Below the pieces are notes generated by a model. That model saw only the letters and a program-made list of their open reading frames with translations, was not told the origin of the DNA and made no database searches. Of a stretch of 21,067 nucleotides of DNA, positions 3,203 to 20,965 are shown piece by piece. This stretch comes from a virus, in the IMG/VR virus record IMGVR_UViG_3300030329_004640, positions 1-21,067 of that record, one strand, 5' to 3'. Position 1 is the stretch's first letter, and each line of letters starts with the position of its first letter. The translations under genes were made by a program, and so were the position numbers.

Positions 3203-3206
3203 TGTT

Positions 3207-3713: not shown

Positions 3714-3717
3714 GAAA

Positions 3718-4197: not shown

Positions 4198-5639
4198 CAG
4201 AAATAGAAGCCCTCAATCTTGAGCATGAATTGGATTTACAATTATCCAAAGCATCCTTTCCATATTTCTTTCAGCATGTTTGCGGTCCAGCACTAGGACA
4301 TGAACATTATTTCTATCCTAACTATATGGAAGAGTGGCAAGAATTAATGAACACTACACAAAGAACAGTTTTGATTTGTAGTCGTGACCACGGAAAGTCT
4401 GTATTTATGCATTGTTGGGTAATTTGGAATTTAATTTTTCAACCGAAGGGCTATCAAATGCTTTACATTTCATCAAACCAAAAACAGACTTTGGTTCATA
4501 TGAGGGACATTGACAAATACTTTTCACACCCTGCTCTTAAGAAATTTAAACCCGCTAGAGGTTGGGCTGTTGGACATATCCGATTAACAAATGGTAATGA
4601 AATTCTAGCACGTTCAGTAGGTTCTCAGATTCGTGGTCTTCACCCCAATGAAATAATTATTGACGACCCTTTGAAAGAATTTAGCATATCAGCAATTCAA
4701 AAGGTCACCGATTGGTTTTATGGAGACATGATTCCAACACTTCACCATACTGCTTCATTAAGAGTAATCGGAACTCCATTTAGTTATACAGATATTTACC
4801 AACAACTAGCAGAAAATGAAGCCTATACTGTTAGAAATTATCCTTGTCTAAATTCCCTTAACGAACCACTTTGGCCTGACCGTTGGGACTATGATGCATT
4901 AATGTCCCGTAAGGCAGAAATTGGTTCTCTTAAATTTACAAGAGAATATCTTTGTGTTCCGATTTCAACAGGGGCTTCATTGTTTAATCCCGAATATCTT
5001 GACCAATCTAAAAACAAAGACCTTGTTTTGAAACCTCATAGGAGAGAGGGCTACAAATATTATGTTGGTGTTGACCCTGCAATTTCTACAGATGGAGACT
5101 ATAACGTAATTACAGTTTTAGAAGTAGATGATAAGGATAACAAATCGGTAGTCTATGTTGACCGAGCAAAAAATGTAGAGTTTAGGCAGAACATTGAGAA
5201 GGTTAGAGTAATTGGAAAAATATTCAATCCTGAAGTGGTGCTGTTTGAAACAAATACCTTTGCTAAATCCTTTACTCAGGAATTAAGGAATGTTTCTGAT
5301 ATTAATGTGCATGACTTCAACACTACTAGAAAAAAGAAACAAGAAGTTATTTTGAATCTACAGATGAATTTTGAAAATGGTAAAATACATCTTCCTTATG
5401 GAAATGAAGAAAGTAGGAGGGTGTCTTCTACTTTAATTGAGGAATTATCTATGTTTGCAATAACAGAATCAGGTAGATTTGAAGGTGTTGGCGCACACGA
5501 CGATATGGTTATGAGTCTTGCTTTGGCTAATGCTGCTACTCATCAATATACAGATACATATGTCCTTTTAGATGAGTTAGATATTTTTACTGCACCCGTT
5601 CAGCCTACTAGTGGCGGCATCATGGGTCTAAATTTTTGA
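4194..5639 (+). CDS. terL: Terminase large subunit (packaging ATPase and nuclease)
   Basis: This is the motor that cuts concatemeric viral DNA and pumps it through the portal into the empty prohead. The N-terminal ATPase half carries a Walker A-type loop S-R-D-H-G-K-S at residues 63-69. The Walker B strand with its acidic pair is E-I-I-I-D-D-P at 153-159. A coupling-type motif, V-I-G-T-P-F, follows. The C-terminal half is an RNase H-like nuclease with the expected metal-binding acids: D294 in G-V-D-P-A, E352 in F-E-T-N, and D436/D437 in H-D-D-M. At 481 aa it has the usual TerL length and looks intact. The ATG overlaps the stop of the upstream gene as ATGA. The stop codon leads straight into the ribosome-binding site of the next gene (TGAGGTGAAATAAATG). 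Identification is firm from the motif set and from the downstream portal and capsid genes. Confidence 0.95.
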   Translation: MTEIEALNLEHELDLQLSKASFPYFFQHVCGPALGHEHYFYPNYMEEWQELMNTTQRTVLICSRDHGKSVFMHCWVIWNLIFQPKGYQMLYISSNQKQTLVHMRDIDKYFSHPALKKFKPARGWAVGHIRLTNGNEILARSVGSQIRGLHPNEIIIDDPLKEFSISAIQKVTDWFYGDMIPTLHHTASLRVIGTPFSYTDIYQQLAENEAYTVRNYPCLNSLNEPLWPDRWDYDALMSRKAEIGSLKFTREYLCVPISTGASLFNPEYLDQSKNKDLVLKPHRREGYKYYVGVDPAISTDGDYNVITVLEVDDKDNKSVVYVDRAKNVEFRQNIEKVRVIGKIFNPEVVLFETNTFAKSFTQELRNVSDINVHDFNTTRKKKQEVILNLQMNFENGKIHLPYGNEESRRVSSTLIEELSMFAITESGRFEGVGAHDDMVMSLALANAATHQYTDTYVLLDELDIFTAPVQPTSGGIMGLNF

Positions 5640-5649
5640 GGTGAAATAA

Positions 5650-7029
5650 ATGATTGTAAAAAGCACACCTGAACAAAAAAGACAAGCGGCAGAAAAACTC
5701 ATAGAAGTCGCAAGGCTTGAAGAAGAGGAAGAAGAGGCTAAAGACGAAATAGAACAATCACTTAATATTGAATTAGATAGTCCTGAACTAAAGTCATTTT
5801 TTGATTCTATTGGTATAACAAACAATCATGAAACCGTTTCTAAATTATCCAACTATTTGAATATTCAGCCTAAAGAAGCACAAAAATATTTTTCTTTTCC
5901 TAATGAATACATTATACAGGACCATACTGTTCCCGATATAATTAAAACCATGAGAAAACATCGAAGGAAATTAAAGGGTGAAGATAGAAACAAAATGAAT
6001 AAGGCTATTGATACTCTTATAGAAGGATATTCAGAACATCTAAACAAATGCATTGACAGTATTTATTGGCTAAGGGATTATCAACCAGCCCTAAAGAAAA
6101 TGCGATTCAATGAAAAAGACCTACACAAACTCTATGAAATAAAATCCGCAGATGAAAGAAGAGAAGTCATAGATTCCCTTTGTAAATATTGGGAGGCAGA
6201 ACTCGAACAAGAAGGAATGCCATACGGAACAGAATATTCCACTCTACAAAAAACAATGAATGTTGCTAAAAGAGAATTTAGACAGCACATTTCTAAAAAG
6301 AATATTAGAAAGAGTCTAAAAGAAGACACTAAAGATTTCATAATGAAAATGGTTTGTGAAGAGGGAGGTATTGGCGCAAGACAAATTTTTGATAGGATGC
6401 CACCAAAACTTCACAAAAGATGTTCTCCTAATATGATTTCTAAGTTAGTAAAATCACTTAACATTACAGATGTAAATGGAGCCTACTACAAACTATCCGA
6501 TGACATCAAAAAGAATATTTGGGCCTATACTGCGGCCTTTATTGATTCAGACGGATATATCACAGTAGATAGAAGTATGAATCCTAGAGTTGGATTGGTA
6601 GCAACGGGGGATAGGGGCAAAGCATTCATGCTTGAAATACAGAAGTCATTAGGAATAGGAAAATTACACCTTGACCAAAAATCACCACAGAATACTAGAC
6701 CAGTTAATCGTCTTAATTTTTATTCTCAAGATGACATAACAAAACTATTGACTAATTGTAGGCCACATTTTAGAATGAAAGGAAAGAATGCTGACTTACT
6801 TTTAGAACTAATTAAGATGAAAAGAGGATTCAAGAAAGCATCATGGTATAAGCAACGCTGTGATGAAATCTTTAAATTAATGAAATGGGAAAACCATAGG
6901 GACCATGTAGGGTATGATTTTACTAAAGAAGGAATTGATGTTGAAACTGTTGCAAAATTACATGATAATTGCAAAATGAAATTAATGAGTCAAGAAGAAA
7001 ACATATCCACCCCTATGTTAAAAGCGTAG
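5650..7029 (+). CDS. LAGLIDADG homing endonuclease domain fused to an unrecognised N-terminal region
   Basis: The C-terminal third is a LAGLIDADG endonuclease, an enzyme that makes a site-specific double-strand break and usually promotes its own spread. The signature is T-A-A-F-I-D-S-D-G-Y at residues 294-303. It is followed by a beta strand starting I-T-V, a segment resembling the usual second half (L-G-I-G-K-L), and a Lys/Arg-rich end. Only one LAGLIDADG copy is present, so it would act as a dimer. The preceding residues (about 228-285) look like a winged helix-turn-helix. Residues 1-225 are charged, with an E-rich coiled segment at 18-40, and I do not recognise them. The gene sits between TerL and portal, inside the packaging block. 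The N-terminal part may be a native viral protein carrying the endonuclease as a fusion, or the whole may be a free-standing enzyme. No self-splicing intein residues are visible. Confidence 0.85.
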   Translation: MIVKSTPEQKRQAAEKLIEVARLEEEEEEAKDEIEQSLNIELDSPELKSFFDSIGITNNHETVSKLSNYLNIQPKEAQKYFSFPNEYIIQDHTVPDIIKTMRKHRRKLKGEDRNKMNKAIDTLIEGYSEHLNKCIDSIYWLRDYQPALKKMRFNEKDLHKLYEIKSADERREVIDSLCKYWEAELEQEGMPYGTEYSTLQKTMNVAKREFRQHISKKNIRKSLKEDTKDFIMKMVCEEGGIGARQIFDRMPPKLHKRCSPNMISKLVKSLNITDVNGAYYKLSDDIKKNIWAYTAAFIDSDGYITVDRSMNPRVGLVATGDRGKAFMLEIQKSLGIGKLHLDQKSPQNTRPVNRLNFYSQDDITKLLTNCRPHFRMKGKNADLLLELIKMKRGFKKASWYKQRCDEIFKLMKWENHRDHVGYDFTKEGIDVETVAKLHDNCKMKLMSQEENISTPMLKA

Positions 7030-7076
7030 GCACATTGATAACATAAAGGGTCACGTTCAGATTGGAGGGGGATAAT

Positions 7077-8723
7077 TTGGCAGAAAAGAGGCGATTTAAA
7101 ATCAGCAACTTGTTTAGGAAAAGCACTCCTAAACCCCTTGATAGGCAAATCTACAACATAGGCATTCAAGAAAAGACCCCTGCTCAATTATTAAACGGGC
7201 CTCTTATCTACAACATTGTTCAGCATTCAGTAATTGTTAGGACATGTTTGGTTCAATTGAAACAGGAATCATTTCGGCGTGGGTATCATTGGGAGAAAGC
7301 ATTTGAAGCCCGATGTAAGAAATGCAATAAAGAACACGATAGACCTGTTCAAGAATGTGCTAAGTGCGGTAGCACAGAATTGGAACTACCTAATCCCGAA
7401 CAGTTAGAATATGCTGAAAAATTCTTAGAAGGATATGTCAATAACTCTACACAATTATTTATTGATGTGCTAAAGGAATTAGAAGATGATTTGAATATCA
7501 TGGATGATGCTTTCTTAGTATTCGTTAAAGAATATTACATTGATGGTAATGGCAAAATAAGAATGCACAGGATAAAGGAATTATTTAGGGGCGACCCCGT
7601 GACCATGCACATTTATGCTGATGAAGATGGAGTTAGAGGAACAAAAGGATTTACTTGCATTCATCATAGAGACATTCTAGCAGAAGAACCATATGAAAGA
7701 TGTGAAACTTGTGGAGGCGCAATGTTTCCGGTATATTTTGTAAATAGGGCTAAGGGAGAAGACCAATATTTCATAGAGGGTGAAGTCCTACATTTTAGTA
7801 AATATAGTCCTAGTAGGATGTATGGGTTGTCTCCAATCTTAACATTATACAATCACATTATGACATTAATTGCTATGGAAAATTATGTTAATTCTTCATA
7901 CACTAAGAGTAGAATGCCTAGAGGATTATTAGCGGTGCAAACTCGCAATATGGAATCTATGATGGCGTTTTGGCGTGGTGTTAAAGAAAGAATGGAACAA
8001 GACCCTCATTATATTCCTGTTATGGGAATTGAAAGCGAGGCTGGAAAGGGTTCAATTGAATGGATTAAGTTCATGGATAGCCTAAAAGAAATGGACTATG
8101 TTTCTGTAAAAGAAGATTTGCGTGATAGGATTGCAGCGTTTTATGGAGTAAGTAAAATCTTCATGGCTGATAATACTACAAGTGGTGGACTAAATAATGA
8201 AGGTATGCAAATATTGGTGACTAATCGTGCGGTGCAAATGGCACAAACTGTCTACAATGATTATGTATTCCCGTTTATTCAAAACCAATTTGGAATAACA
8301 GATTGGAATTTGAAACTACCTCCTTCTGAAGAAGAGGATGAAATTGCTGCCCTAAGAAAAAGAGAAATTGAAGTGCAGATTGCAGCCTCAATTAAAAATC
8401 TAGGATTTGAAATAGAAATGGATGAAGATGGAAATTTCACCTATGAAAAAGAACAGCCTAAAGAAGATATGGAACAAAAAGGTATTGAAGGAGACTCCCC
8501 ATCAGGAGGAATGAATTTAGCAGGTTCTAATCTTGACCAAAGGGATATAGATGAAATGCAAAGAGAAGCAATTCAAGGAGGGGATTCTAAACCACAAGAG
8601 AATCCTCCGGCCACAAGGAATAAACCTGCAAAGAGTGTCGGACCCGATAAGAGATTTGCAGGATTACCAAAAGATGCGGGGAATCAAAACGTGGATAAAA
8701 GGAATGAAAGGAGAGTGGGATGA
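7077..8723 (+). CDS. Portal protein with embedded zinc knuckles
   Basis: The portal forms the ring at one head vertex through which TerL pumps DNA and to which the tail attaches. Recognition rests on position (after TerL, before protease and capsid) and on the central region. That region has V-L-H-F-S-K-Y-S-P-S-R-M-Y-G and, near the C-terminus, A-A-F-Y-G-V-S-K-I-F followed by the long helix typical of HK97/SPP1-type portals. I chose the TTG at 7077 because GGAGG lies 8 bases upstream. A TTG at 7062 would sit before that site. Two zinc-knuckle-like sets are visible: C80/C83 with C94/C97, and C194/H197 with C209/C212. The C-terminal 100 residues are polar and glutamine/glycine-rich, likely disordered. 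With 548 aa the protein is of usual portal length. The stop overlaps the next gene by ATGA. Confidence 0.85.
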   Translation: MAEKRRFKISNLFRKSTPKPLDRQIYNIGIQEKTPAQLLNGPLIYNIVQHSVIVRTCLVQLKQESFRRGYHWEKAFEARCKKCNKEHDRPVQECAKCGSTELELPNPEQLEYAEKFLEGYVNNSTQLFIDVLKELEDDLNIMDDAFLVFVKEYYIDGNGKIRMHRIKELFRGDPVTMHIYADEDGVRGTKGFTCIHHRDILAEEPYERCETCGGAMFPVYFVNRAKGEDQYFIEGEVLHFSKYSPSRMYGLSPILTLYNHIMTLIAMENYVNSSYTKSRMPRGLLAVQTRNMESMMAFWRGVKERMEQDPHYIPVMGIESEAGKGSIEWIKFMDSLKEMDYVSVKEDLRDRIAAFYGVSKIFMADNTTSGGLNNEGMQILVTNRAVQMAQTVYNDYVFPFIQNQFGITDWNLKLPPSEEEDEIAALRKREIEVQIAASIKNLGFEIEMDEDGNFTYEKEQPKEDMEQKGIEGDSPSGGMNLAGSNLDQRDIDEMQREAIQGGDSKPQENPPATRNKPAKSVGPDKRFAGLPKDAGNQNVDKRNERRVG

Positions 8724-8950
8724 TGACAGAAGACATTAGACAAAAAGAAAAGAGACTAAGAAAAGAATTGGCACAGGCTAAGGCCCAAATGTCATTAGAA
8801 GATAACAAGAAAGAAATCCCACGCAATTATGATATTGCTGGAATTGATGCTAGAACTTCACATAAAGCAACACATGGTTCTTCAGATATTCCTGATGTAA
8901 TTCTTTTACCAAAGAAAAAGCGTCAACAAAAAGAAAACATTCCATTCTGA
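8720..8950 (+). CDS. Small unrecognised protein (76 aa)
   Basis: This short protein is charged, with an N-terminal helix rich in Lys, Glu and Arg (about residues 4-30). A less structured C-terminal half ends in a run of basic residues (P-K-K-K-R-Q-Q-K). The start overlaps the portal stop as ATGATG. GGAG at 8710-8713 serves either the ATG at 8720 or the one at 8723, so the exact start is uncertain by one codon. The stop is followed at once by the GGG of the next gene's ribosome-binding site. I do not recognise the family. Placement just after the portal is compatible with a small head or connector accessory protein, without direct evidence. Confidence 0.7.
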   Translation: MMTEDIRQKEKRLRKELAQAKAQMSLEDNKKEIPRNYDIAGIDARTSHKATHGSSDIPDVILLPKKKRQQKENIPF

Positions 8951-8959
8951 GGGATTATC

Positions 8960-11869
8960 TTGAAGAATATTCTATCTAATAGGGGCATTAGGGATATTTT
9001 ATCCCAGTCTAATTTAGACCCTTATACTGATAGACTTGTAAAAAATAAAGCAGCCTTAGATGTTATTTCAAAGTCTTTAGAAGAGAACATCAATGAAAAG
9101 AATTTTTCTGAATATAAAAGATTGATTAAAGCAGTTGAAGATGAAACTGATGAAGAAAGAAAAAAGAGAGCCAAAAAAGAAGCAGCAGCGGCAAGAAGAA
9201 AGGAGAAGAAAGAACAGAAAGAACGACAAGTTTCCATACAAGAAAAACTTGAACGGGAAAGACTTGAAGAAGAAAAAAGATTTGAAGAAGAAGAACTTCT
9301 TAGAGAGAAAATAAAAACTCTTGAAGAAGAAATACAAGATGCCAAGGATGAAGGGGTAGATGTTGAAATTTTAGAAGAACAAATAGACATGCTTGATGAA
9401 TACAAACAAAGACTTTCGGGTAAAAAGGAAAAGGAAGAAGAACGAGAAAAAAGAAAAATAGAACTCGAAAGTGAAAGGGAAAGGGAAAAGGAACAACGAG
9501 AGGCTACTTCAAAGGAAACGAGAAAAATTATAGAAAGGGAGAAAAAAGCAAGAAAGAAAGCAGCAGCAAAGCGAAAAAAGGCAGAAAAAAGAGAAAAGGA
9601 AAAGGCAAACATATGGAAAGAATGGAATGAAGTAAAGGAAAAATTAGAAACTCTTTCTGAAAGGGAAGATAATGCTTCATCTATTAAAGACTATGAAGGA
9701 ATAGTTGGTAATTTATCTTACAAAGGTGGTATTGAAGATGCATCAGAAAGTTTTTTGATGGCGTTGATTAAATTAATAGGGGGTAGTGATGTTATTAGTA
9801 GTCAATTAGGTGCAATGGTTGATGAGAAAGATAAAGAAGACCGAGTAGATTTTCGCTATGCTATTATTGAACAATTTAAAAGAAAGAAAAAAGGAGAGCC
9901 TAAACAAGCAATAAAGGAAACAGTTAATGTTGAAGCCTTAGAAAAGGAAATAAGAAAAATACTTTCTAAAAAGATAGAATGGAAGTCATTATTTAGAGAA
10001 AAACAACTGGAAGAACTAAAAAAGAAACTTAATAGTTTCAGGAAGAAGAGAAAAGAAATAGAGAAGCAACTAAAAGAAATACAAAATTCCGAATATAAAG
10101 AAGAAATTTCGGTAATTACTGAAGAAGATTTTGAAGAAAATAAAGAACAAATGACGAAAGAAATAACAAATAAATTATTAGAAGTTTCGCAATCTATTGA
10201 AGAAGTTGAAGAAATAATTATTTCTAAAGAACAACAAAAAGATAAAAAAATTAAAATGGCTATTATGACCAAATCTACTGAAAACATTGGGGTCTTGCCT
10301 CTTATTCATGAACATTTGTTTGGTCATCTTCCTAAATTTTATTTAAAAAGAAAAAGAACAGAACAGTTTTTTCCTGAAACTGAAACAAGTTTCTTTAATC
10401 CTGAAACAAAAAAATTAGAGCCTTTTGTAAGAGAAGCAACAACAAGGAAAGTTAAGACATTAGAAACAGAATTAAATAGACTTAAAAGAGAAGTTAGAAA
10501 GGATGTAAAAAGATTGTATGAGGAAAAATTTGAAACTGAAGGTTCAAGAAAATTAGAATTTGAAGTGAAAGCAATTTCTTCACCCGAATTTGGCAATATG
10601 GATAGTGAAAAAATTCAAAATGAAATTGCAAAATTATTAGATATGAAAAAACAACTTCAAGAAGAAATAGAAAATTCTGTTCTAAAACATGACGAAGCCC
10701 TAAAACATAGAGGGGAAACTTCCAAAGAAGATTTAAAAGAAGTAAATGAAGAAATAGAAGATATTCAATTGGATATTCAAGATTATAAGAAACAAGTAGA
10801 TGAATGGGCTAAAATAGAACAAGTTAAGCCTGAAAATATTAAATTCAATAAAATTAAAGGAAAACTTAGAGAAGGCTCTCTTAAAGAAAAAGAAATAGCA
10901 GGAAAAATAGAAATGCTTGAGGAAAAAATAAAGGAAATGGATGCAATAGCAGAACTGGCAGATGTCGCTATGTTATCTAGTAGTGATGGTGGAAAAACTG
11001 AACAAGAAATTGAAAGAAATAGAATATCTTTACAACAAAAAATTGGCCGAGCCAAATCCGAGGCTTCAAAAATAAAACACCAAAAAGAATATGAATTTTG
11101 GACTGGCGAATTTGAAAAATTAAAAGAAAGACAAGAGGATTTTAAAGGAGAACATGGCATGTCTCCTGAAAAATATTTGAAAAACTACCATCAATTACTA
11201 AACCAACATAAACAGGAAAGTAGTAAAGAAATAGTGTTTTTCCTTGATGATTTACAAATAGAAGCAAAAAAGAAATTAGAAATGTTATTGTTGAATAGGC
11301 GAACTCTAGAAGACAATCTTGAGTATGCAGACGGAAGAAAACGCAAAGTAGAGGTAAAAGAATTTAAAGAAAAACTTGAAAATAAAAATAAAAAGGCAGA
11401 AAGGGGTCTAGATATGAAAATAAAAAGGTATCAAGAAATTCAAGAAGTATTAGAAGAATATGAAAATTCTGAAGCAGATATTAAAGAGATAAATAAAAAA
11501 CTAAGAGGCATGGCTTTAGATGAAAAAGAGACAGCACTCCAATTAATGCCCGAATATGATATTAAGAAAACGAATAAAGAAACCAAAGAATTTAGCACAA
11601 TAAATGAAACTATATCAAGAATGTTAGAGAAAGAAGTGGCTAATTCAAACGATGCCGTTGAAAATCTTGAATATTTGAAATTTTTCAAAAATGTAGACGT
11701 TAATCAAGCAATCACAACAATGGATGATTATGCTGAAAATATAGTTGACCCATCAACCTTAAGAAGACTACAAAAAATGATTTCTAAAGCGAAAAAATAT
11801 TTAGAGAACCGTAATGAATTAATAGAAGAAATGATTGAAGCAATACGGGAATCTGAAAGAAAGGACTAA
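8960..11869 (+). CDS. Very long coiled-coil protein (969 aa)
   Basis: This 969-aa protein is dominated by Lys and Glu and is predicted by eye to be almost wholly helical. Long heptad-like stretches run over about residues 55-215, 315-410, 490-620 and 640-940. A shorter, less charged region around 250-290 and another near 430-480 may be small folded parts. There is no Walker A or B motif, so it is not an SMC or Rad50 ATPase. No hydrophobic segment of membrane length is visible, which is unlike many tape-measure proteins. The TTG start follows TGAGGG. The opening M-K-N-I-L-S is a weak echo of the N-terminal tag found in neighbouring genes. Position between portal and capsid genes argues for a structural, internal or scaffold-like role. 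A tape measure is possible but would normally lie after the capsid genes. Base composition is notably A-rich on this strand. Confidence 0.75.
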   Translation: MKNILSNRGIRDILSQSNLDPYTDRLVKNKAALDVISKSLEENINEKNFSEYKRLIKAVEDETDEERKKRAKKEAAAARRKEKKEQKERQVSIQEKLERERLEEEKRFEEEELLREKIKTLEEEIQDAKDEGVDVEILEEQIDMLDEYKQRLSGKKEKEEEREKRKIELESEREREKEQREATSKETRKIIEREKKARKKAAAKRKKAEKREKEKANIWKEWNEVKEKLETLSEREDNASSIKDYEGIVGNLSYKGGIEDASESFLMALIKLIGGSDVISSQLGAMVDEKDKEDRVDFRYAIIEQFKRKKKGEPKQAIKETVNVEALEKEIRKILSKKIEWKSLFREKQLEELKKKLNSFRKKRKEIEKQLKEIQNSEYKEEISVITEEDFEENKEQMTKEITNKLLEVSQSIEEVEEIIISKEQQKDKKIKMAIMTKSTENIGVLPLIHEHLFGHLPKFYLKRKRTEQFFPETETSFFNPETKKLEPFVREATTRKVKTLETELNRLKREVRKDVKRLYEEKFETEGSRKLEFEVKAISSPEFGNMDSEKIQNEIAKLLDMKKQLQEEIENSVLKHDEALKHRGETSKEDLKEVNEEIEDIQLDIQDYKKQVDEWAKIEQVKPENIKFNKIKGKLREGSLKEKEIAGKIEMLEEKIKEMDAIAELADVAMLSSSDGGKTEQEIERNRISLQQKIGRAKSEASKIKHQKEYEFWTGEFEKLKERQEDFKGEHGMSPEKYLKNYHQLLNQHKQESSKEIVFFLDDLQIEAKKKLEMLLLNRRTLEDNLEYADGRKRKVEVKEFKEKLENKNKKAERGLDMKIKRYQEIQEVLEEYENSEADIKEINKKLRGMALDEKETALQLMPEYDIKKTNKETKEFSTINETISRMLEKEVANSNDAVENLEYLKFFKNVDVNQAITTMDDYAENIVDPSTLRRLQKMISKAKKYLENRNELIEEMIEAIRESERKD

Positions 11870-11893
11870 AAATAACTTAAGGTAGGCGATACT

Positions 11894-12292
11894 ATGGGAT
11901 GGGAGAACATACTCAAGGACTTAAGCCCTAGAGAAAGGGCTGAAGTAGAAGAATTCGCTCCTGAAGAAATGAAAAAGGAACAAAGTCCTATCCTTGAACA
12001 ATTGGATAAAAAACAAAGAAGGCGACTAAAGAAAACACTTCAGGCGGCTGAACCCACAGAATACTTTGGTCAGGATTTTACTCAATTAGGTGAATTGCTT
12101 GACATGATGCGAGAATTGGATTTGGTTAAATCCGACAAAAAATTAAACAAACGTATGGAAACAATGAGTGATGAGAACATTGATATTGTGGCTATGGCGA
12201 GCAAACTCCGTAAGTCCTATGAAACATTATACAGGCAAATTAGAGGAATAGTCTATCCTAGAAGTAGAGACACGCTGAGGGATGAAGAATGA
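11894..12292 (+). CDS. Small helical protein with the shared W-x-x-I-L-K N-terminus (132 aa)
   Basis: This 132-aa charged helical protein begins M-G-W-E-N-I-L-K-D-L-S-P, the clearest example of the tag also seen at 3207 and 3718. After the tag come an acidic segment, a basic cluster K-K-Q-R-R-R-L-K-K around residues 40-48, and two or three further helices. I do not recognise the family and see no catalytic motif. The ATG follows AAGGTAGG. The stop overlaps the next start as ATGA. The tag suggests it shares a destination or a partner with the other tagged proteins. The head module around it makes the capsid interior the simplest guess. Confidence 0.75.
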   Translation: MGWENILKDLSPRERAEVEEFAPEEMKKEQSPILEQLDKKQRRRLKKTLQAAEPTEYFGQDFTQLGELLDMMRELDLVKSDKKLNKRMETMSDENIDIVAMASKLRKSYETLYRQIRGIVYPRSRDTLRDEE

Positions 12293-12519
12293 CAGAAGAA
12301 AATGAAATGGTATTATTACTAAAAGAATTAGTTAGCAGAATTAAAGCATTGGAGGCAGTAGCATTCAATGATGACAACATCCTAATGAAATCAGGGTTTG
12401 TTGTAGCGAATACTCCAACACCTAGCATTGACAATAAAATTGGTGCTTCATTTAATATGAATGAAGTTGCCAATATGTCATTCGATGAAATGGAAAAGAT
12501 AATCAAAAACATGGAGTGA
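12289..12519 (+). CDS. Small unrecognised protein (76 aa)
   Basis: The ATG overlaps the upstream stop (ATGA) and has GAGGGA 6 bases upstream. The N-terminal 25 or so residues form a likely amphipathic helix. A short Pro/Thr/Ser segment (N-T-P-T-P-S) follows, and a Met/Asn/Glu-rich end. I see no motif and do not recognise the protein. It belongs to a run of three small genes between the coiled-coil protein and the ligase, all closely spaced, which suggests they are co-translated. Confidence 0.65.
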   Translation: MTEENEMVLLLKELVSRIKALEAVAFNDDNILMKSGFVVANTPTPSIDNKIGASFNMNEVANMSFDEMEKIIKNME

Positions 12520-12524
12520 GTAAT

Positions 12525-12755
12525 ATGCCTGAAAAAATCACTAAAGAAGAAAGTATGGTTCAAAGGGCCATTGAAGCGGCTAGACTAGCAAAACAAATGC
12601 TTGAAGCAACAGGTAGTGCTTTTGAAATTCCTGATGCTGAAGAAGTGAAAGTAAAGAGGCCAAAGGCTGAGAAGGATAAAACCAAACCTAAGAAGACAGA
12701 AGATACTCATTCAGGATATGGTTCTGCTGGCGATGAAGATGAATATAAGATTTAG
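12525..12755 (+). CDS. Small unrecognised protein with a charged tail (76 aa)
   Basis: I take the ATG at 12525 as the start because GGAG at 12513-12516 lies 8 bases before it. A GTG at 12516 would overlap that site. The first 30 residues form a helix. The rest is low complexity: a Lys/Pro-rich stretch (about residues 43-60) then a Gly/Asp/Glu-rich end, probably disordered. I do not recognise a family. The next gene, the ligase, begins 18 bases downstream behind its own GGTGAT site. Confidence 0.65.
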   Translation: MPEKITKEESMVQRAIEAARLAKQMLEATGSAFEIPDAEEVKVKRPKAEKDKTKPKKTEDTHSGYGSAGDEDEYKI

Positions 12756-12773
12756 AAATATAGGTGATAAATT

Positions 12774-15275
12774 GTGCCTGAATCCGGTCTTATGTTTGAA
12801 AAGGAACCCGATTCCATTTCATATCAAATAATAACCTTATTTGAAAAGACTAGGGTTGCCTATCTTTCTGCTAAAGCAGATTCCAAAAACTACGGCTCTA
12901 GATGGAGAAAGGCCGTTGAAGACATTCGAGAGGAAATTGATGATTTAGATTCATTAGGAAGGCAATTAAACACCTTTCTAGAAGAAAAGGATTTAGAAGA
13001 TAAAGAAGCCATGAATCCTGAAAGCCTTACTGCTAAAAAAATATATGAGGGAATTAAAGAATTGAGGTTTAAGTCTGAAGATGTAATGGACCCATTCTCT
13101 AAACGATTCAAAGATGATGTATTAGAAAATCTATTAGAAAGTCCTGAAATTATGGTGAAGTTTATTCACTATGCTCTACGTTCAGATAATACAACCTTAC
13201 CTGATGAATTGTATGAAATCAAAGATATGGAACCTGATGATTTAACAGCAGGAATGGATGGTCTAGATATTTCCCCTGATGATATTCCTCTCTACATAGT
13301 AGAACATTATGGCGATGGAAAAAATTCAAAGAAAGTAGAAAGTAAATTTAAGGCAGCACTTAATCTTCTAAAATTAATATTCCTTTCTAAGTATTCTAAA
13401 AAGAAATGGGCAAAATTACTAGGTATAGAATTAAAAAAGGCTGAAGAGAAAGCCCTAGTTAATTTCATTGTGCCTAACAAACCGATGTATAGAATATTCG
13501 ATATTGAAGACATGAATGAATTAAAAGGATTTTCAGGAGAATATGTTGTTCAAGAAAAATATGATGGGATGAGAATTCAAATACATAAAATAGATAACAA
13601 TGTGAAAATCTATTCTTATAATGAAAAAGACATTACAGAAAAATGTCCTCAACAAATTAAGGTAATGAAATTGAAACATTTCGGTGATTGTATTCTTGAT
13701 GCAGAATTAATTCTTTTTGATGGTGATAAAGCCCTACACCGAGCCGATACCATAGCCCACGTTTTCAAAAATAAATACAAAGATGCAGAATTGAAAGCCC
13801 ATGTGTTTGATATAATGCGCCATGAAAACCAAAACCTAATTGATGAACCCCTCCGTGAAAGAATAAACATTCTATTCAATAATTATTCTTTACATTCTGA
13901 TGATAAGTTAGCATTCCCTTCTAAGAAAGATACTAGAATCGCAGATACTATGGAGGATATAGAAACATATTCTAAAGGTATAATGGAAATGCCAACATCC
14001 GAAGGAGTTGTAATCAAAGACATAGAATCAACCTACTTTATAGGAACAAAGAAAAATCCAAAGTGGATTAAGTGGAAAAAATTTGTTGATTTAGATTTGA
14101 TAGTATTAGATAAAAAGAAGACAAAATCCAATATGTATTCTTATGCTTTGGGAGCAGCAGCCTTTAATGAAGAAGGAAAATACATTGAGGAAATTCATGG
14201 TAGACAATACATGAATGTTGGAAAAGCCAACAATACAAAATTAGATGTTGATATTGGGGATATTGTTAGAGTAAAGGTAGATGAGGTGAAATCTTCTGAT
14301 GAAAGATTCACAATATATGGTAGTAAAATTATTGAAATCCCTGAAGTAGACCAACCGGATAAGACAATAACATTAGAAATGTTATCTAAAGATACTAAGC
14401 CTAGTTTAAAATTTAAGGCAAAGGCTCTCAAAAAGGGCATTATGATTACTGACCTTATTCATGGAGAAGCCATCTTAAAATCTATGGATGGATTTACCCT
14501 TTATGAATTTGAAAAAGAAAACCTAATGTCAAAGAATGCTATGGCTAATCTAGACATGTGGAAAGAAGAAGCAGAAAGTATCATGAAAACCAAACAAAGT
14601 AAGTTGACTGTTTCTGTATTTAACTATTTGAAATCTAATGGGGCTAAAACTCCTAAAGAAATCCATAACTTTCTAGTTAAGCACCATCCTGATTTATATG
14701 ATGATATTTTAGATAGTAAGATGAATAAGGTAAAAGATTGGCTTGAAGAAAGAGATGGTATATCTTTTGATGAAAGGACTGATAAACTCTATGCTGAAGA
14801 TGATAAAATAATGGCAGATTCTCCAATAATTAAATATGAAACTCCTAAAGAGTATCAAAGTGGAGAATTCAAACTACATCTGAGAGAAGACGATAACCTA
14901 AACCTATCAATAAAATTAGGAGACACTTCATTGGTTTGGACTATTGACATTAATACAAATGATGATATTTTTGCACTATTTGGTAAAGCAGCAAAGTTTC
15001 CAGCAGAAGTAGCAAGAAATGTTTCTAAAAAGAAATTAGTAGATACTGGCGAAATAAAATTAGGTGTTCAAAGAAATGGCTACCATGAATACTTTTTATC
15101 AGGAAATAAATTTGAAACTAAAATGCATTTTAGATTATTACCAGTAGATGATAAAGAAATGTGGTTGGCTTGGACAGGATATAGACAGGAACCAGCAGAT
15201 AAAGAAGGAGATGAAGGTCTTTGGAATATTAATGAAGACAAGTTTTTTAGGATAAAAATACCTAATTCAGAATAA
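12774..15275 (+). CDS. ATP-dependent DNA ligase, multidomain
   Basis: This enzyme seals nicks in DNA using ATP, through a lysine-AMP intermediate. Motif I is E-K-Y-D-G-M-R with the adenylated lysine at K262. Motif III has E311 in D-A-E-L-I-L-F-D-G. Motif IV has E410 in S-E-G-V-V-I-K-D, and motif V has K433 and K435 in K-W-I-K-W-K-K. An OB-fold (about residues 440-540) follows with D-I-G-D-I-V-R-V-K-V. The N-terminal 240 residues are helical and probably the DNA-binding domain of archaeal/eukaryotic-type ligases. At 833 aa it is much longer than the usual 550-600. The extra part has a winged-helix-like domain (about 609-673) and a beta-rich C-terminal domain (about 680-833), discussed in the findings. 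The GTG start follows GGTGAT. A ligase between portal and capsid genes is unusual; replication genes normally lie elsewhere. Confidence 0.92.
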   Translation: MPESGLMFEKEPDSISYQIITLFEKTRVAYLSAKADSKNYGSRWRKAVEDIREEIDDLDSLGRQLNTFLEEKDLEDKEAMNPESLTAKKIYEGIKELRFKSEDVMDPFSKRFKDDVLENLLESPEIMVKFIHYALRSDNTTLPDELYEIKDMEPDDLTAGMDGLDISPDDIPLYIVEHYGDGKNSKKVESKFKAALNLLKLIFLSKYSKKKWAKLLGIELKKAEEKALVNFIVPNKPMYRIFDIEDMNELKGFSGEYVVQEKYDGMRIQIHKIDNNVKIYSYNEKDITEKCPQQIKVMKLKHFGDCILDAELILFDGDKALHRADTIAHVFKNKYKDAELKAHVFDIMRHENQNLIDEPLRERINILFNNYSLHSDDKLAFPSKKDTRIADTMEDIETYSKGIMEMPTSEGVVIKDIESTYFIGTKKNPKWIKWKKFVDLDLIVLDKKKTKSNMYSYALGAAAFNEEGKYIEEIHGRQYMNVGKANNTKLDVDIGDIVRVKVDEVKSSDERFTIYGSKIIEIPEVDQPDKTITLEMLSKDTKPSLKFKAKALKKGIMITDLIHGEAILKSMDGFTLYEFEKENLMSKNAMANLDMWKEEAESIMKTKQSKLTVSVFNYLKSNGAKTPKEIHNFLVKHHPDLYDDILDSKMNKVKDWLEERDGISFDERTDKLYAEDDKIMADSPIIKYETPKEYQSGEFKLHLREDDNLNLSIKLGDTSLVWTIDINTNDDIFALFGKAAKFPAEVARNVSKKKLVDTGEIKLGVQRNGYHEYFLSGNKFETKMHFRLLPVDDKEMWLAWTGYRQEPADKEGDEGLWNINEDKFFRIKIPNSE

Positions 15276-15313
15276 TTATTATATAGTCAATGTAAAAAAG
15301 GAGGGTTGAGCAA
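15276..15313 (+). promoter_or_regulatory. Short gap with TATA-like sequence before the capsid module
   Basis: This is one of the few gaps in the window. It holds an A/T run reading TTATATAG (15279-15286) that resembles an archaeal TATA box, then AAAAGGAGG (15295-15303) as the ribosome-binding site of the protease gene. If the TATA box were used, transcription would start around 15306-15312, after the ribosome-binding site. The two signals do not fit together well, so the promoter reading is weak. The ribosome-binding site is solid and unusually strong for this window. Confidence 0.25.
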
Positions 15314-16498
15314 ATGGCATCTGCTGTATTGTCGAAGGAAAACGATTTCAGGATTCTAAAGAGTAGTCAGGATTTAATGATAGGAGGATATGCAAGTATA
15401 GAAATGGTCGATAAACAAAATGACCTAATAACACTATCTGCATTAAAGAAAGCCGCCTCCGAATTTATGGAAAGAGAAAAATTCAGAAATGTAATGACAA
15501 ATCATTCAAATGTTCAAGTCGGAGAAGTAGTAAAAAATTACCGAGACAAAAATGGAAAATTATGGAAAACTGAAGTAGATGATGTTGGATTCTTTGTAGT
15601 AATAAAATTAAGGGATGATATAGAAAAGGCTAAGGAAATTAATAGAGGAATAAGAAAGGGAACATTAAGGTCTTTTAGCATAGGTGGACAAGCACTCAAA
15701 AAAATCAAAAAGGAAAGTGAAGAACTGGGAGAATACAACGAAATCAGCAAATTAGAATTGCATGAAGTGACCATTTGTGAAAAAGGAATAAACCCCGAAG
15801 CAAGATTCGATATATTGAAACAAGAAAAAGGTGAAAAAGAAATGACCGAAAAACTAGAAAAAGCATTGGAAGAGTTAGATACCCTACTAAAAGAGGTAAA
15901 TACGCTCAGAAAAGAAGAAGAAATGGAGAAGGATGAAATGCCTGAATTAGAGGCTATGGATTCTGAAGAAGAAGAAGAAATGATGGAATACAGCGATACT
16001 GAGGCAAAAGCAAAGCCTTCACTAGATGCTGGTGTTCTAGAAGATGGAGAGCCATCTGATAGAGTAGTCCACAATGATAGCGGAACTCCTGTTAATAATG
16101 GACAGGCTGCAACTACCGTTGTAAAAGCATTCGATAATTCAGAATTGACAACATTGAATCTTTCAGTAGAAAATGTAGAGAAAGCATATGCAGAATTCCG
16201 TCAGGAGCAATTAGAGAAGAGAGCATATGACAATCTAAGAAAAGAGTTTGAGGCTCGATTTGAAAATGAAATTAGCCATCGTGAAAATGTTCTAGAAAAG
16301 AGCAAGTATGATGCACAGTCTGAAGTAAATGCTCTAAAAGAGGAACTTTCAGAACTAAGAAAGTCATTCACTTCTGAAAAGAATACTATTCTCAAAGCAC
16401 AACAGGATGCGGCGGCATTGCCTGAAGGCTTCCCTACTAGCCTAGATGAAATTGCTAGTATGGATTGGTCTGAATTAAACCGCTTTGTTGGAAATTGA
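15314..16498 (+). CDS. Prohead protease fused to scaffold
   Basis: The N-terminal 170 residues resemble the phage prohead serine protease family (HK97/herpesvirus assemblin fold), which degrades the scaffold and trims capsid proteins during head maturation. Visible active-site candidates are H64 in T-N-H-S-N, S120 or S122 in R-S-F-S-I-G-G, and H150/E151 in E-L-H-E-V-T-I. The order and spacing fit the family. From residue 177 the sequence changes to an acidic, Glu-rich coiled coil (to about 225), a low-complexity Asp/Ser/Gly/Pro region, then further long helices (about 290-365). This is a typical scaffold layout. A well-placed internal ribosome-binding site and ATG at 15842 probably give a separate scaffold protein. 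The gene lies directly before the major capsid gene, as expected, and its stop merges into that gene's ribosome-binding site (TGAGGGGG). Confidence 0.85.
   Translation: MASAVLSKENDFRILKSSQDLMIGGYASIEMVDKQNDLITLSALKKAASEFMEREKFRNVMTNHSNVQVGEVVKNYRDKNGKLWKTEVDDVGFFVVIKLRDDIEKAKEINRGIRKGTLRSFSIGGQALKKIKKESEELGEYNEISKLELHEVTICEKGINPEARFDILKQEKGEKEMTEKLEKALEELDTLLKEVNTLRKEEEMEKDEMPELEAMDSEEEEEMMEYSDTEAKAKPSLDAGVLEDGEPSDRVVHNDSGTPVNNGQAATTVVKAFDNSELTTLNLSVENVEKAYAEFRQEQLEKRAYDNLRKEFEARFENEISHRENVLEKSKYDAQSEVNALKEELSELRKSFTSEKNTILKAQQDAAALPEGFPTSLDEIASMDWSELNRFVGN
15828..15844 (+). promoter_or_regulatory. Internal ribosome-binding site and start codon for the scaffold
   Basis: AAGGTGAA is followed after about 8 bases by ATG, in frame within the protease gene. 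The same GGTGA-type site precedes many true starts in this window. Lys/Glu-rich coding sequence can produce such a match by chance, so the domain boundary at the same place is the main support. Confidence 0.5.
15842..16498 (+). CDS. Nested scaffold protein from an internal start (218 aa)
   Basis: An in-frame ATG at codon 177 of the protease gene is preceded by AAGGTG (15828-15833) with 8 bases of spacing, the same site type used by other genes here. It falls exactly at the switch from protease fold to acidic coiled coil. Translation from it would give a 218-aa scaffold without protease. Lambda C/Nu3 uses this arrangement, with the scaffold made in excess from an internal start. The sequence supports the start; actual use is inferred. 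Confidence 0.55.
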   Translation: MTEKLEKALEELDTLLKEVNTLRKEEEMEKDEMPELEAMDSEEEEEMMEYSDTEAKAKPSLDAGVLEDGEPSDRVVHNDSGTPVNNGQAATTVVKAFDNSELTTLNLSVENVEKAYAEFRQEQLEKRAYDNLRKEFEARFENEISHRENVLEKSKYDAQSEVNALKEELSELRKSFTSEKNTILKAQQDAAALPEGFPTSLDEIASMDWSELNRFVGN

Positions 16499-16511
16499 GG
16501 GGGAATGAAAT

Positions 16512-17855
16512 ATGGCAGGATATATTAACACAATGAAAGATTTAGAGGCTGAAGCATACGGATTAACCAATGCTTTTGGTGGAAACGACATTTTGAAACA
16601 AGCGGGCGTTGTTCAAGGTATTCATACCGCCCACGATATTGCAGATGCAGCCGCAAGCGGCGTGACTGGAATATCAACAACAACCGGATTACATAATGTT
16701 CTTTATGGACAAAAGGTTTGGTCAATGTTGAATAGAGAAGTAAATGCACTATCAATGATTTCTAAGAGGCCATATACTTCTTCAGGATGGAGAGTTTTGA
16801 AAGCACGACCATTCGGAGGTTCAGGAAATACTTTGGCAGAATCACTACAAAGCGATGGTTCAGGTGGAGGAATTGGTGCGGATGACCCACAAGCAGATGA
16901 AATTGGTGGAGTTCCTGAGAATGCAGGACTTTCTACTGCGGCAGATGGTCTAGGTTCTATGGCTCCAACTTATGCACAATTGTTTATGAGTCCAAAAATC
17001 GTTGCTCATCAATTTGACTTCTCAGAATTAGCAATGGAGATGGCAAAGATTGACGATGGAATTGGAGACATTCGAGCGCAAATGAGAAAAGATATGGGAA
17101 TTGCCCACGCTGAAGCACAGAATATGATGCTTGTTATGCCACTAGAGCATTATGGTGAAGTAAGTGCATTGCCCGACATTGAGAGAAATTATACCTCATT
17201 GAACAAGATTATTACTAGCAGGGCAGAATTGTTGGCAATTGATGGTGGAGTTATCGCAACAGACACTACTAGCGCATCAAACGCTCTAGGAAAGATTTAC
17301 GGCGATGAAAGATTTAGTGCTGCTTCTTTCTTAGATGCAACAATATCTTTCAATAGCGCATATACTTCTAGTGATGTTAGGCCATTAACTCTAACTATTG
17401 TTAATGATTTGATTAGGCAACTAAGAGAGGCTGGAGGAACACCAAAGGTCATTCTAACAGGATATGATACAATTCAGGCAATGGCTGACTTATTGCAGTC
17501 TCAAGAGCGTTTCATGGACAGAAAGGAAATTATTCCTACTGTTAATGGAGTAAGAGGTGTAAAAGGTGCAGAAGTTGGATTTAGAGTAGCAACATACTAC
17601 GACATTCCACTAATCCCAGTAAAGGATATGGCAAGCACAGGACAGGGAGCAACAAAGATTTCTGATATGATGTTCTTAGATACAGACCATCTTTGGCTCG
17701 CTGTTATGAAACCAACACAATATTTCGAGGATGGTATCGCAAACGGAAACCCATTCGGTGTAGGTCGTCTAGGAAATCAGGCTCTTTACCGAACAATTGG
17801 AGAAGTAGGATGTTCATTCTTCAAGGGCCAAGGAAAGATTACCAACCTACAATGA
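16512..17855 (+). CDS. Major capsid protein (HK97-like)
   Basis: The product is 447 aa and I assign it as the HK97-fold major capsid protein that builds the icosahedral head. The evidence is position straight after protease/scaffold, usual length, and composition: Ala/Gly-rich, moderately charged, mixed helix and strand. The long region around residues 165-205 (with F-S-E-L-A-M-E-M-A) resembles the spine helix of this family. The later part, with V-I-L-T-G-Y-D-T-I and then W-L-A-V-M-K-P-T-Q-Y-F, fits the A-domain and P-domain of related capsid proteins. The glycine-rich stretch (about 112-135) may be the extended loop. The first 35 or so residues may be removed on maturation, but I see no definite cleavage site. 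The ATG follows GGGGGAATGAAAT. Base composition is slightly richer in GC and codons look more selected than in neighbours, as expected for a highly expressed gene. Confidence 0.85.
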   Translation: MAGYINTMKDLEAEAYGLTNAFGGNDILKQAGVVQGIHTAHDIADAAASGVTGISTTTGLHNVLYGQKVWSMLNREVNALSMISKRPYTSSGWRVLKARPFGGSGNTLAESLQSDGSGGGIGADDPQADEIGGVPENAGLSTAADGLGSMAPTYAQLFMSPKIVAHQFDFSELAMEMAKIDDGIGDIRAQMRKDMGIAHAEAQNMMLVMPLEHYGEVSALPDIERNYTSLNKIITSRAELLAIDGGVIATDTTSASNALGKIYGDERFSAASFLDATISFNSAYTSSDVRPLTLTIVNDLIRQLREAGGTPKVILTGYDTIQAMADLLQSQERFMDRKEIIPTVNGVRGVKGAEVGFRVATYYDIPLIPVKDMASTGQGATKISDMMFLDTDHLWLAVMKPTQYFEDGIANGNPFGVGRLGNQALYRTIGEVGCSFFKGQGKITNLQ

Positions 17856-19031: not shown

Positions 19032-19430
19032 ATGGCAGCATTGGAACACGATACAAGACTAGTAATGACGATTTTATTTGTAGGAACAGTTAGTGGGGCA
19101 AATGTTTTCTTTTACGCAGAATATGGAATGAATTTTCCATATAGTAATTTTGAACATGCTTTATTGTTTGGTCTAATTACTGTTGGTGGAATTATGTGTC
19201 TAAAGGCACTATTCGACCTATCACTAAATGAAAGAATAGAAATGTGGTTATTGGATAGAAGAATCAAACACTATTGGGAAAGAAAACAAAGAGATGAAAG
19301 TGTTCGTGCAAAACTAAAAGATACTATGAAACAGTATTCCACAACATATAATATTCCACAGGCACAATTGGTTCCTTCATTTGAAAGCGATGGCGTAGGA
19401 AACGAGTTTTTAACAGCACTACAAGAATGA
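19032..19430 (+). CDS. Two-helix membrane protein (132 aa)
   Basis: Two hydrophobic segments are visible, about residues 9-28 (L-V-M-T-I-L-F-V-G-T-V) and 42-62 (A-L-L-F-G-L-I-T-V-G-G-I-M-C-L). They are joined by a short loop, so both ends should face the same side. The following 70 residues are highly charged, with a basic helix (R-R-I-K-H-Y-W-E-R-K) and probably lie in the cytoplasm. No signal peptide cleavage site is evident. I do not recognise the family. It is the first of three consecutive membrane-linked genes, ending with the GTPase at 19668, and its spacing suggests they are made together. Confidence 0.75.
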   Translation: MAALEHDTRLVMTILFVGTVSGANVFFYAEYGMNFPYSNFEHALLFGLITVGGIMCLKALFDLSLNERIEMWLLDRRIKHYWERKQRDESVRAKLKDTMKQYSTTYNIPQAQLVPSFESDGVGNEFLTALQE

Positions 19431-19442
19431 AGGTGATGCTTT

Positions 19443-19661
19443 TTGGTATTGGCTGGCTTCGATGAAGGGGCAATGGCCTATGATTTACAAAGAGCGCATT
19501 CAGCAGACATTTGGTTCATAAAATTCCGAGCATATTTTTGGGGAACATGTGCTTCTTTAAGCGCATTACTTTTGGGTAATATCCTTGGAGTTTTTGATGT
19601 GAATATTATGGGTTGGATGGTAGATTCTTTAAGCGATGCATGGCATCATACATTTGGGTGA
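19443..19661 (+). CDS. Small single-span membrane protein (72 aa)
   Basis: The TTG at 19443 is 7 bases after AAGGTG. An ATG at 19436 is out of frame. A hydrophobic segment covers about residues 30-50 (A-Y-F-W-G-T-C-A-S-L-S-A-L-L-L-G). The N-terminal part, V-L-A-G-F then acidic residues, shares the opening V-L-A-G-F with the GTPase gene just downstream, although nothing else is alike. The C-terminus is Trp/His-containing and amphipathic. No family is recognised. Small proteins of this type can be holins, but a single span plus the neighbouring GTPase makes a partner role at the membrane equally possible. Confidence 0.7.
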   Translation: MVLAGFDEGAMAYDLQRAHSADIWFIKFRAYFWGTCASLSALLLGNILGVFDVNIMGWMVDSLSDAWHHTFG

Positions 19662-19667
19662 TTTGAT

Positions 19668-20330
19668 GTGTCTGTTCTCGCTGGTTTCGCAATAGTAATT
19701 ACTGAAGCAGTAGTATCATTTTACAAAAGACTCCATGCTATTAATTTTGGAATTTATGGTGCTACAATGGTGGGTAAAACAACTTTACATCACCAATTGA
19801 GAACAAGAGGTGAAGTCCCTCAAATAAAAAAACGCACAGTAGGTTTGCATAGAGGCACTAGAAAAGTCATTAAAATTGATGGTAATATGAATACGGTAAA
19901 GACAGCAGATGTTGGTGGAGAAGCATTCTATTGGAAAGAATGGATAAAGGATATGAGAAATCGCCATGTAAAATATATTATTTTCATGATTGACCATAGA
20001 CATTTAGATTCTTCTGCAAATTTAGACCATCAACTAGCATGGAAATTTTTAGTAGATTCTATTTGTTCAGATAGATGGCCTAATGGTAAAAAGAAAAAGG
20101 AACATGATTATCCTCTTGCTATTGGGCTTTGGGCAAATAAATATGATGTTTGGAATGAAAAATATCCTACTGAAGATGATATAGAAAAGCACCCCATTTT
20201 TGAGCCGTTCAAGTATGGTATGGGCAAACTAAATGACAAGGGAATCCCAACATTCAAATATATTATATCGGCTAAATCCCAACCGGAAATGGTCTATCGG
20301 GGCGTTCTGACAATGATAAAGGATTATTGA
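19668..20330 (+). CDS. Membrane-anchored small GTPase (Ras/Arf-like)
   Basis: This 220-aa protein carries all five GTPase motifs in order. G1 (P-loop) is G-A-T-M-V-G-K-T-T at residues 31-39. A candidate G2 threonine lies in K-R-T-V-G-L, around 54-60. G3 is D-V-G-G-E at 81-85, G4 is N-K-Y-D at 157-160, and G5 is S-A-K at 201-203. G4 and G5 give specificity for guanine, so this is a GTP-binding switch and not a generic ATPase. Residue 85 (E) takes the place of the usual Q after D-x-G-G, which often lowers intrinsic hydrolysis. The first 18 residues (V-L-A-G-F-A-I-V-I-T-E-A-V-V) are hydrophobic and likely anchor it in the membrane. The GTG start lies 7 bases after GGGTG. It follows two small membrane proteins, suggesting one membrane complex. 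The partner process is unknown. Confidence 0.85.
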   Translation: MSVLAGFAIVITEAVVSFYKRLHAINFGIYGATMVGKTTLHHQLRTRGEVPQIKKRTVGLHRGTRKVIKIDGNMNTVKTADVGGEAFYWKEWIKDMRNRHVKYIIFMIDHRHLDSSANLDHQLAWKFLVDSICSDRWPNGKKKKEHDYPLAIGLWANKYDVWNEKYPTEDDIEKHPIFEPFKYGMGKLNDKGIPTFKYIISAKSQPEMVYRGVLTMIKDY

Positions 20331-20335
20331 TTACT

Positions 20336-20965
20336 ATGTTTCAACAACCGAATTTAATAGGCATGAATACTGCAAGCAATAATGTAGCGGCTGAGTTTTT
20401 ACCTCCACTACAAAAAGCAAGAGCATCGGGTCCAATAGAAGAATACAAATTTTTCAATGTTAGACCTAAAAGAAAATTAAAGGAATTACAAAAAGTATTA
20501 TTACCTGAAAAGAAAAAATTCATATTTTTGAAATATAGTTTTAAATTTAATCTAAAAGATAGGTGTGTTGTTTGTGGAATGCACCATGTATGGGAGGCAG
20601 GGGATTTACTAAGACCGCCTCTTCCACTAAGCCATGTCACTAAAGGTAGGCCATTAAGAGGAACATTTTGTCCTAAACATTCTTCAATGCACAGACAATT
20701 AGAAACCCTACAACAAGAAATATTGGCTGATGAACACGGATTAGATTTTATGGCATTTAAGCCTAGAATGCCAAAGGTTCTAAAAAAGGGACCATTACAG
20801 ACATTATCAAAAGAAGATGTGATTTCATTAACTGCAACCGGATGGATTATTAAACCACCCTCCGTCAACGGAGATGAAAGCCCACCGGAGGAATTAGTTA
20901 GGCTGGCAGGAGAAATAAAATTAGCCGCAGATAGGATTGATTTTTTGATGGAAAAGGGAGAATGA
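20336..20965 (+). CDS. Zinc-binding protein, unrecognised (209 aa)
   Basis: A likely zinc site is formed by C77-x-x-C80 with H83 or H84, plus C112-x-x-H115 and H119. This makes a CCH-CHH-type cluster around a 30-residue loop (residues 81-111) rich in Pro and Leu. The N-terminal 75 residues are basic, and the C-terminal part has a helix near 195-209. I do not recognise a family. It could bind nucleic acid or simply be a zinc-stabilised structural protein. The ATG at 20336 is chosen. A TTG at 20327 lies only 3 bases after AAAGGA and overlaps the GTPase stop, so it is a less likely alternative adding 3 residues. Gene order places it at the end of the membrane cassette or the start of the next structural block. 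Confidence 0.7.
   Translation: MFQQPNLIGMNTASNNVAAEFLPPLQKARASGPIEEYKFFNVRPKRKLKELQKVLLPEKKKFIFLKYSFKFNLKDRCVVCGMHHVWEAGDLLRPPLPLSHVTKGRPLRGTFCPKHSSMHRQLETLQQEILADEHGLDFMAFKPRMPKVLKKGPLQTLSKEDVISLTATGWIIKPPSVNGDESPPEELVRLAGEIKLAADRIDFLMEKGE

Follow-up and report, generated by a model that had tools for sequence, protein, structure and literature searches.

A conserved head-operon cassette of a divergent Arf-like small GTPase and two small membrane proteins in magrovirus-type tailed archaeal viruses

Molecular switches of the Ras/Arf type power the budding of vesicles in archaeal and eukaryotic cells. In Haloferax volcanii, the Arf-like small GTPase ArvA (OapA) is required for vesicle formation, which is strongly lowered by deletion of arvA and raised by overexpression of ArvA (PMC10927574). 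The N-terminal helix of ArvA is amphipathic, like that of Arf1, and the ArvA operon includes a Zn-ribbon protein (ArvC); loss of the Zn-ribbon protein increases vesiculation (PMC10927574). Small GTPases are a known kind of protein, and viral examples are known from giant viruses. Magrovirales are tailed viruses of 90-110 kb with a family B polymerase, a ligase, a major capsid protein related to that of Druskaviridae and, in the aoguangvirids, a GroEL-type chaperonin, and they are associated with Poseidoniales (MGII; PMC10768690, PMC12999244). They are known from metagenomes only (PMC12999244), and surface-ocean magroviruses have been reported to be ubiquitous (PMC10160649).

The stretch of DNA analysed here (21,067 nucleotides, IMG/VR record IMGVR_UViG_3300030329_004640; "the window") covers part of a tailed archaeal virus genome and encodes TerL (named by similarity), portal (named from its position), a prohead protease matching PF04586 in profile search, a major capsid protein (MCP) and an ATP-dependent DNA ligase. 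Its MCP and the genes at the centre of this study are the following:

16512..17855, + strand, MCP (PF17236, phrog_24667; relatives among Druskaviridae MCPs)
19032..19430, + strand, two-span membrane protein, 132 aa, with two hydrophobic segments
19443..19661, + strand, one-span membrane protein, 72 aa read from TTG; a single hydrophobic segment
19668..20330, + strand, Ras-superfamily small GTPase with Arf-like G3, 220 aa, GTG start (from motifs, AF2 model and PDB matches)
20336..20965, + strand, zinc-motif protein, 209 aa counted from ATG (the TTG-start ORF begins at 20327), CxxC-(31)-CxxH

A search of 50,697 annotated phage records for relatives of the MCP turned up only Druskaviridae and a pair of methanogen viruses, the identities being 22-25%. 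We gathered 16 longer relatives of the window virus via the GTPase gene (81-98 kb, plus a single 185-kb record with doubled genes); family B DNA polymerase is present in all 16, mostly as two ORFs, and Cpn60 chaperonin in 13. These two genes, the MCP and the ligase fit the published description of Magrovirales, and we class the window virus as a tailed archaeal virus of magrovirus type; its host would, from the literature on this order, be Poseidoniales. Three further observations concern other genes of the window. The ligase gene (12774-15275) lies within the head module directly before the prohead protease, also in relatives; the ORF after TerL (5650-7029) has, by eye, the look of a homing-endonuclease-type insertion with a C-terminal LAGLIDADG-like AAFIDSDGYI; and an extremely charged, coiled-coil-like protein of 969 aa between portal and ligase (8960-11869) is, again by eye, perhaps a scaffold or core protein.

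The initial annotation had described a two-span and then a one-span membrane protein placed directly before a GTPase with tight spacing, and this layout holds: 12 nt separate the first ORF from the second, and 6 nt the second from the third. By hydropathy, the window's two-span protein has hydrophobic segments at residues 10-28 and 43-61, and two such segments are found in all 142 family sequences (KD 1.3). The loop is short, the first span carries a conserved TRLxMTxLFVGxxSGxN, and the C-terminal tail is basic and helical, ending in FLxxL. The one-span protein has its hydrophobic segment at residues 42-60, with one segment in 136 of 139 family sequences (KD 1.3), and ahead of the span stands RAHSAD, in which R17, A18, H19, S20, A21 and D22 are each at least 97% conserved. 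With dN/dS at 0.03-0.12 for the two-span protein and roughly 0.03-0.14 over the cassette genes, we regard these genes as real and constrained.

The GTPase family was aligned from 140 distinct sequences. In the window, its functional elements are:

19671..19730, + strand, hydrophobic N-terminal helix, residues 2-21 (hydropathy, AF2)
19758..19784, + strand, G1/P-loop GATMVGKTT, residues 31-39 (GxxxxGKTT in 140/140)
19833..19844, + strand, G2 RTVG, residues 56-59 (R56, T57, the G2 Thr, and G59 in 140/140)
19908..19943, + strand, G3/switch II DVGGEAFYWKEW, residues 81-92 (DxGG[E/Q], D-to-W distance 11 in 140/140)
20136..20147, + strand, G4 NKYD, residues 157-160 (N157, K158 and D160 in 140/140)
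20268..20276, + strand, G5 SAK, residues 201-203 (140/140)

The full G1-G5 set that had been read from the window protein alone (residues 31-39, 81-85, 157-160 and 201-203) is thereby confirmed and extends to the whole family: G31, G36, K37, T38, T39, T57, G59, D81, G83, G84, N157, K158, D160, S201, A202 and K203 are 100% invariant (n=140), which rules out a chance set of motifs. The window G3 reads DVGGE (81-85), and Trp92, 11 residues past the G3 Asp, is invariant in all 140 sequences. This spacing is that of the Arf-type DxGGQ motif with Trp at +11, yet residue 85 is Glu in 114 of the 140 sequences and Gln in the other 26. One GTPase gene (locus L239, 11318-11689) is interrupted by a single in-frame stop at the codon that specifies the invariant Trp125 in relatives; this gene copy may be broken, or the stop may be a sequencing error.

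The N-terminus is hydrophobic, as had also been noted at the outset, with a mean KD over residues 1-19 of 1.84 in the window and 1.61 across the family. The AF2 helix spans residues 4-22, G6, F7 and E13 are invariant, and the helix ends in KR. Because a charge, the invariant Glu13, sits within the hydrophobic helix, the N-terminus may lie against a partner or enter the membrane shallowly instead of crossing it as an ordinary span.

Profile search, fold search and AF2 model agree on a Ras-superfamily small GTPase, the identity first proposed for the protein, and place it in no non-GTPase P-loop family; such a family is ruled out because the fold, like each of the five motifs, is that of a GTPase. 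Window positions 19668-20330 therefore encode a Ras-superfamily (TRAFAC) small GTPase, for which the motifs predict GTP binding and hydrolysis. The AF2 model (pTM 0.76) has the small-GTPase fold, and its best structural matches are Loki RagO, Arl8b, Arf1 and Arl2 (Z 17.4-17.7); Rab structures match at Z about 16. Small GTPases and G-alpha stand at the top of both structure-match lists, and every one of the 1000 Foldseek chains listed reaches a Z of at least 8, where the VIA-align scores cover Foldseek's own matches only and families absent from the listing may still match. We assign no single family because the difference in Z between Arf/Arl/Rag and Rab is too small.

The sequence searches gave a similar picture, in that the best-matching family differs by member between Arf, Ras and Rab. 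For one member (L070), the best PDB sequence match was 8oun, an archaeal-type GTP-binding protein (E 0.0039), followed by Arl8/Arl10; 8ouk, from the same series, is titled Asgard Arf, and the L070 alignments to 8oun and Arl8 share the D-to-W spacing of +11 of the viral GTPases. The family profile and another member yielded weak PDB matches to Ras or Rab11. No Pfam or NCBIfam model scored above its cut-off for the window protein and its relatives, the best Pfam models below cut-off being MMR_HSR1, Roc, SRPRB, Ras and Arf, and the NCBIfam small_GTP domain reached 23.7 bits with the window protein (cut-off 42.5). For Arf (PF00025), the best member scored 20.7 bits, below the cut-off of 22.3, and any match was seen in 10 of 40 members. 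SRP receptor beta (PF09439) matched 29 of the 40, below cut-off where scored (cut-off 25 bits; 15.6 for the window protein, and among five scored relatives L079 came highest, at 19.4). Roc (PF08477) stayed at 18.7 bits for the window protein (cut-off 27), and the protein has no space for a COR domain because it stops at 220 aa. As to the MglA family, whose partner gene is MglB/roadblock, no roadblock match was found among the cassette neighbours, which are membrane and zinc-motif proteins.

Set against described GTPases, the viral protein shares with the Asgard Arf proteins (8ouk series, 8oun) and eukaryotic Arf/Arl the switch II Trp at +11, an N-terminal helix of membrane type and structural matches at Z 16-17.7, but differs from them in having mostly Glu instead of Gln at position 85, SAK as G5, a longer N-terminal helix and a score under the PF00025 cut-off. 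It resembles SRP receptor beta (SRPRB) as a membrane-anchored small GTPase, anchoring being predicted here, and in the frequent profile match; unlike for SRPRB, all scored viral members fall below the cut-off and the cassette has no SRalpha partner gene. The closest viral folds in BFVD among the matches listed are giant-virus Ras/Rab proteins (Edafosvirus, Pithovirus), which are likewise virus-encoded and of the same small-GTPase fold but are only 10-20% identical among these matches, have eukaryotic hosts and lie in no tailed-virus head operon. From these features we call the protein a divergent Arf-like member of the Ras superfamily and leave its subfamily unassigned.

To measure linkage without bias, we gathered loci by the MCP alone and kept those that continue for 3.5 kb or more past it. 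All 93 such loci (88 distinct DNA stretches, 71 clusters at 95% identity) encode the GTPase together with the two membrane proteins. The neighbouring membrane genes are absent from none of them, and the check proposed in the initial annotation, whether the three genes stay together in related viruses, comes out in favour of the cassette; chance neighbourhood is ruled out. Gene order and strand are identical in all 212 loci carrying the three genes and the zinc-motif gene. Among capsid contigs with almost enough downstream sequence, one (L174) lacks the cassette; it extends 3419 nt downstream, slightly short of the 3500-nt limit, and has a terminase-like ORF directly after the head genes, so that it looks like an assembly chimera or a rearrangement. 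Conservation of the GTPase exceeds that of its own neighbours, of the ligase and of the protease. Magrovirus-type viruses inherit the three genes together, as a core set located among structural genes; the initial annotation had noted neither this core status nor the zinc-motif gene that follows.

Outside these viruses, no relative of the GTPase was found in PHROGs or in the 50,697 annotated phage records (INPHARED), in line with the earlier remark that small GTPases are not standard parts of tailed-virus head modules. A scan of genomes for a host origin returned only two matching contigs (L085 and L086), both in a GTDB genome labelled Maricaulis and probably a magrovirus put in the wrong bin; beyond them there was no cellular homologue in a scan that covered no Poseidoniales genomes, so a host homologue is possible. 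There was no PADLOC defence-system match and no plasmid relative of note. The magrovirus literature that we searched, which leaves aside some of the main genome papers and hence possible prior annotation, does not mention a Ras/Arf-like GTPase. As judged by these searches, a Ras/Arf-like GTPase as a core head-operon gene of a tailed archaeal virus is new to PHROGs and INPHARED.

In 58 sequences of the zinc-motif protein downstream, C77, C80, C112 and H115 never vary, and the protein is present in 92 of the 93 MCP-found loci. Its gene is less tightly coupled to the cassette genes than these are among themselves, because 18 of the 92 loci have an insertion between it and the GTPase gene. These inserts are variable accessory ORFs, often with a WxxILK start, and resemble a cargo-like hotspot (e.g. 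L047, 8660-9226). The zinc-motif protein gave no convincing match in Pfam, PDB sequences or PDB folds; a known GAP was rejected on the lack of a Pfam or PDB match and of a recognisable GAP fold, and the protein is possibly a regulator or a head/tail protein.

The WxxILK start recurs elsewhere. In the form M(x)W-[KEQ]-[DN]-[IV]-[LI]-K it opens dozens of unrelated late-module proteins in magrovirus-type loci, including these ORFs:

3207-3713, 3718-4197 and 11894-12292 of the window, WxxILK-start ORFs
2790-17037 of locus L254, 15 WxxILK-start ORFs

Of 4355 ORFs, 249 (5.7%) have WxxILK within 25 residues of the N-terminus, compared with 0.5% per internal stretch of 25 aa, and the 167 distinct near-N-terminal cases fall into 76 BLAST clusters. 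One genome has 15 such ORFs in a 20-kb late stretch, against a single one in a total of eight further 20-kb stretches picked from outside the head module, and nearly all N-termini of the prohead protease that we inspected carry a [DE]FxILK-like form. WxxILK looks like a targeting signal that these proteins have in common, possibly for the inside of the capsid, or may be a scaffold-binding tag.

Compared by description and not by sequence, ArvA appears to be the nearest experimentally studied parallel to the viral GTPase. Both are archaeal, single-domain and Arf-like with a hydrophobic or amphipathic N-terminal helix, both come near PF01926 and PF00025 in profile searches, and both operons hold a zinc-motif protein. 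Two small membrane proteins set the viral operon apart from that of ArvA, and the viral zinc-motif protein, unlike ArvC (PF09845), has no Pfam match; in searches of the window and of 15 long relatives, neither ArvB (PF09846, OapB) nor ArvC (OapC) gave a match above cut-off. An ArvA-like action of the viral GTPase need not mean ArvA identity.

Since an Arf-type GTPase with a hydrophobic N-terminus and membrane partners is set among structural genes and has in no case been seen lost, the cassette is most likely a late, membrane-bound Arf-like switch that acts on the host membrane in virion assembly or release. We put at about 40% the more specific reading that the three proteins form a GTP-switched membrane complex of the core late module serving egress or membrane remodelling; the initial annotation had likewise suggested that they may form a membrane complex, for egress, host-membrane remodelling or virion assembly. 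The GTPase would then be located at the cytoplasmic side of the host membrane, where it would dock on the two small membrane proteins or be held by them, and in its GTP state would deform or organise the membrane. This action would most likely free virions from a host that has no peptidoglycan, be it by budding-like deformation, vesiculation or local opening, and the zinc-motif protein could regulate the GTPase in the way suggested for ArvC and ArvA. According to a review, holin-endolysin egress is ineffective in archaea without peptidoglycan, and archaeal virus isolates had no known holin gene (PMC4456609). That an order of tailed prokaryotic viruses makes an Arf-like switch of its own for membrane remodelling, encoded by a core late gene, and that its virions exit the archaeal cell through GTPase-driven deformation of the membrane instead of holin-endolysin lysis, is possible but in our judgement doubtful. 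Several points count against egress: the position among head genes suits a role in head assembly equally well, the magroviruses searched have no OapB or OapC, no family profile scores above cut-off, and the zinc-motif protein has no recognisable GAP fold.

In a head-assembly role, the cassette would tether the assembly of prohead or portal, or packaging, to the host membrane on its inner side, and the GTPase would time one of the steps. An analogy is T4 gp40, a membrane protein that aids portal-initiated head assembly at the membrane. The cassette does lie in the head operon, between decoration-type proteins and the head-tail adaptor, and GTPase and MCP are equally conserved, both having a median identity of 75% to their window counterparts. 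The head module of Druskaviridae (HVTV-1, HCTV-1), with a related MCP and similar gene order, also speaks for this role, as it has a one-span membrane protein in the equivalent slot:

11220-11552 of L081, HVTV-1 gp124, one-span membrane protein
11224-11553 of L082, HCTV-1 gp116, one-span membrane protein

However, HVTV-1 gp124 has no detectable homology to the two cassette membrane proteins (hhalign probability 0.2 and 0.1%), and its identification as their homologue is unsupported. Unlike in magroviruses, the next gene encodes an adaptor-like protein without a P-loop, which rules out HVTV-1 gp125 as a GTPase counterpart. Profile searches detected none of the three cassette genes in these haloarchaeal sister viruses, whose heads are thus built without the GTPase, and we consider an assembly platform rather unlikely.

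The same place among head genes would suit virion components: carried inside the particle or fixed to it, the three proteins would work during entry, where they would help DNA to cross, or would reseal, the membrane of the next host, and hydrophobic virion proteins could insert during entry. None of the 93 cassette sets carries the N-terminal WxxILK, a possible capsid-targeting tag, which speaks weakly against packaging given that the role of the tag is conjectural; overall we find a virion component improbable. Control of the host or of superinfection, in which a membrane GTPase competes with or redirects host traffic through SRbeta-like targeting or vesicle formation, would accord with the Arf/SRPRB-type profile similarity, below cut-off, of many members. 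Genes of this sort are usually accessory and patchy, whereas the GTPase is found in every relative and within the structural operon, and we hold such a takeover to be quite improbable.

For the way in which tailed archaeal viruses leave cells that have no peptidoglycan, a core, membrane-linked small GTPase is a concrete and testable candidate. If the GTPase remodels membranes, tailed archaeal viruses would join the lineages that use Arf-type switches, and the viral protein would inform our view of membrane bending by ArvA and other archaeal GTPases.
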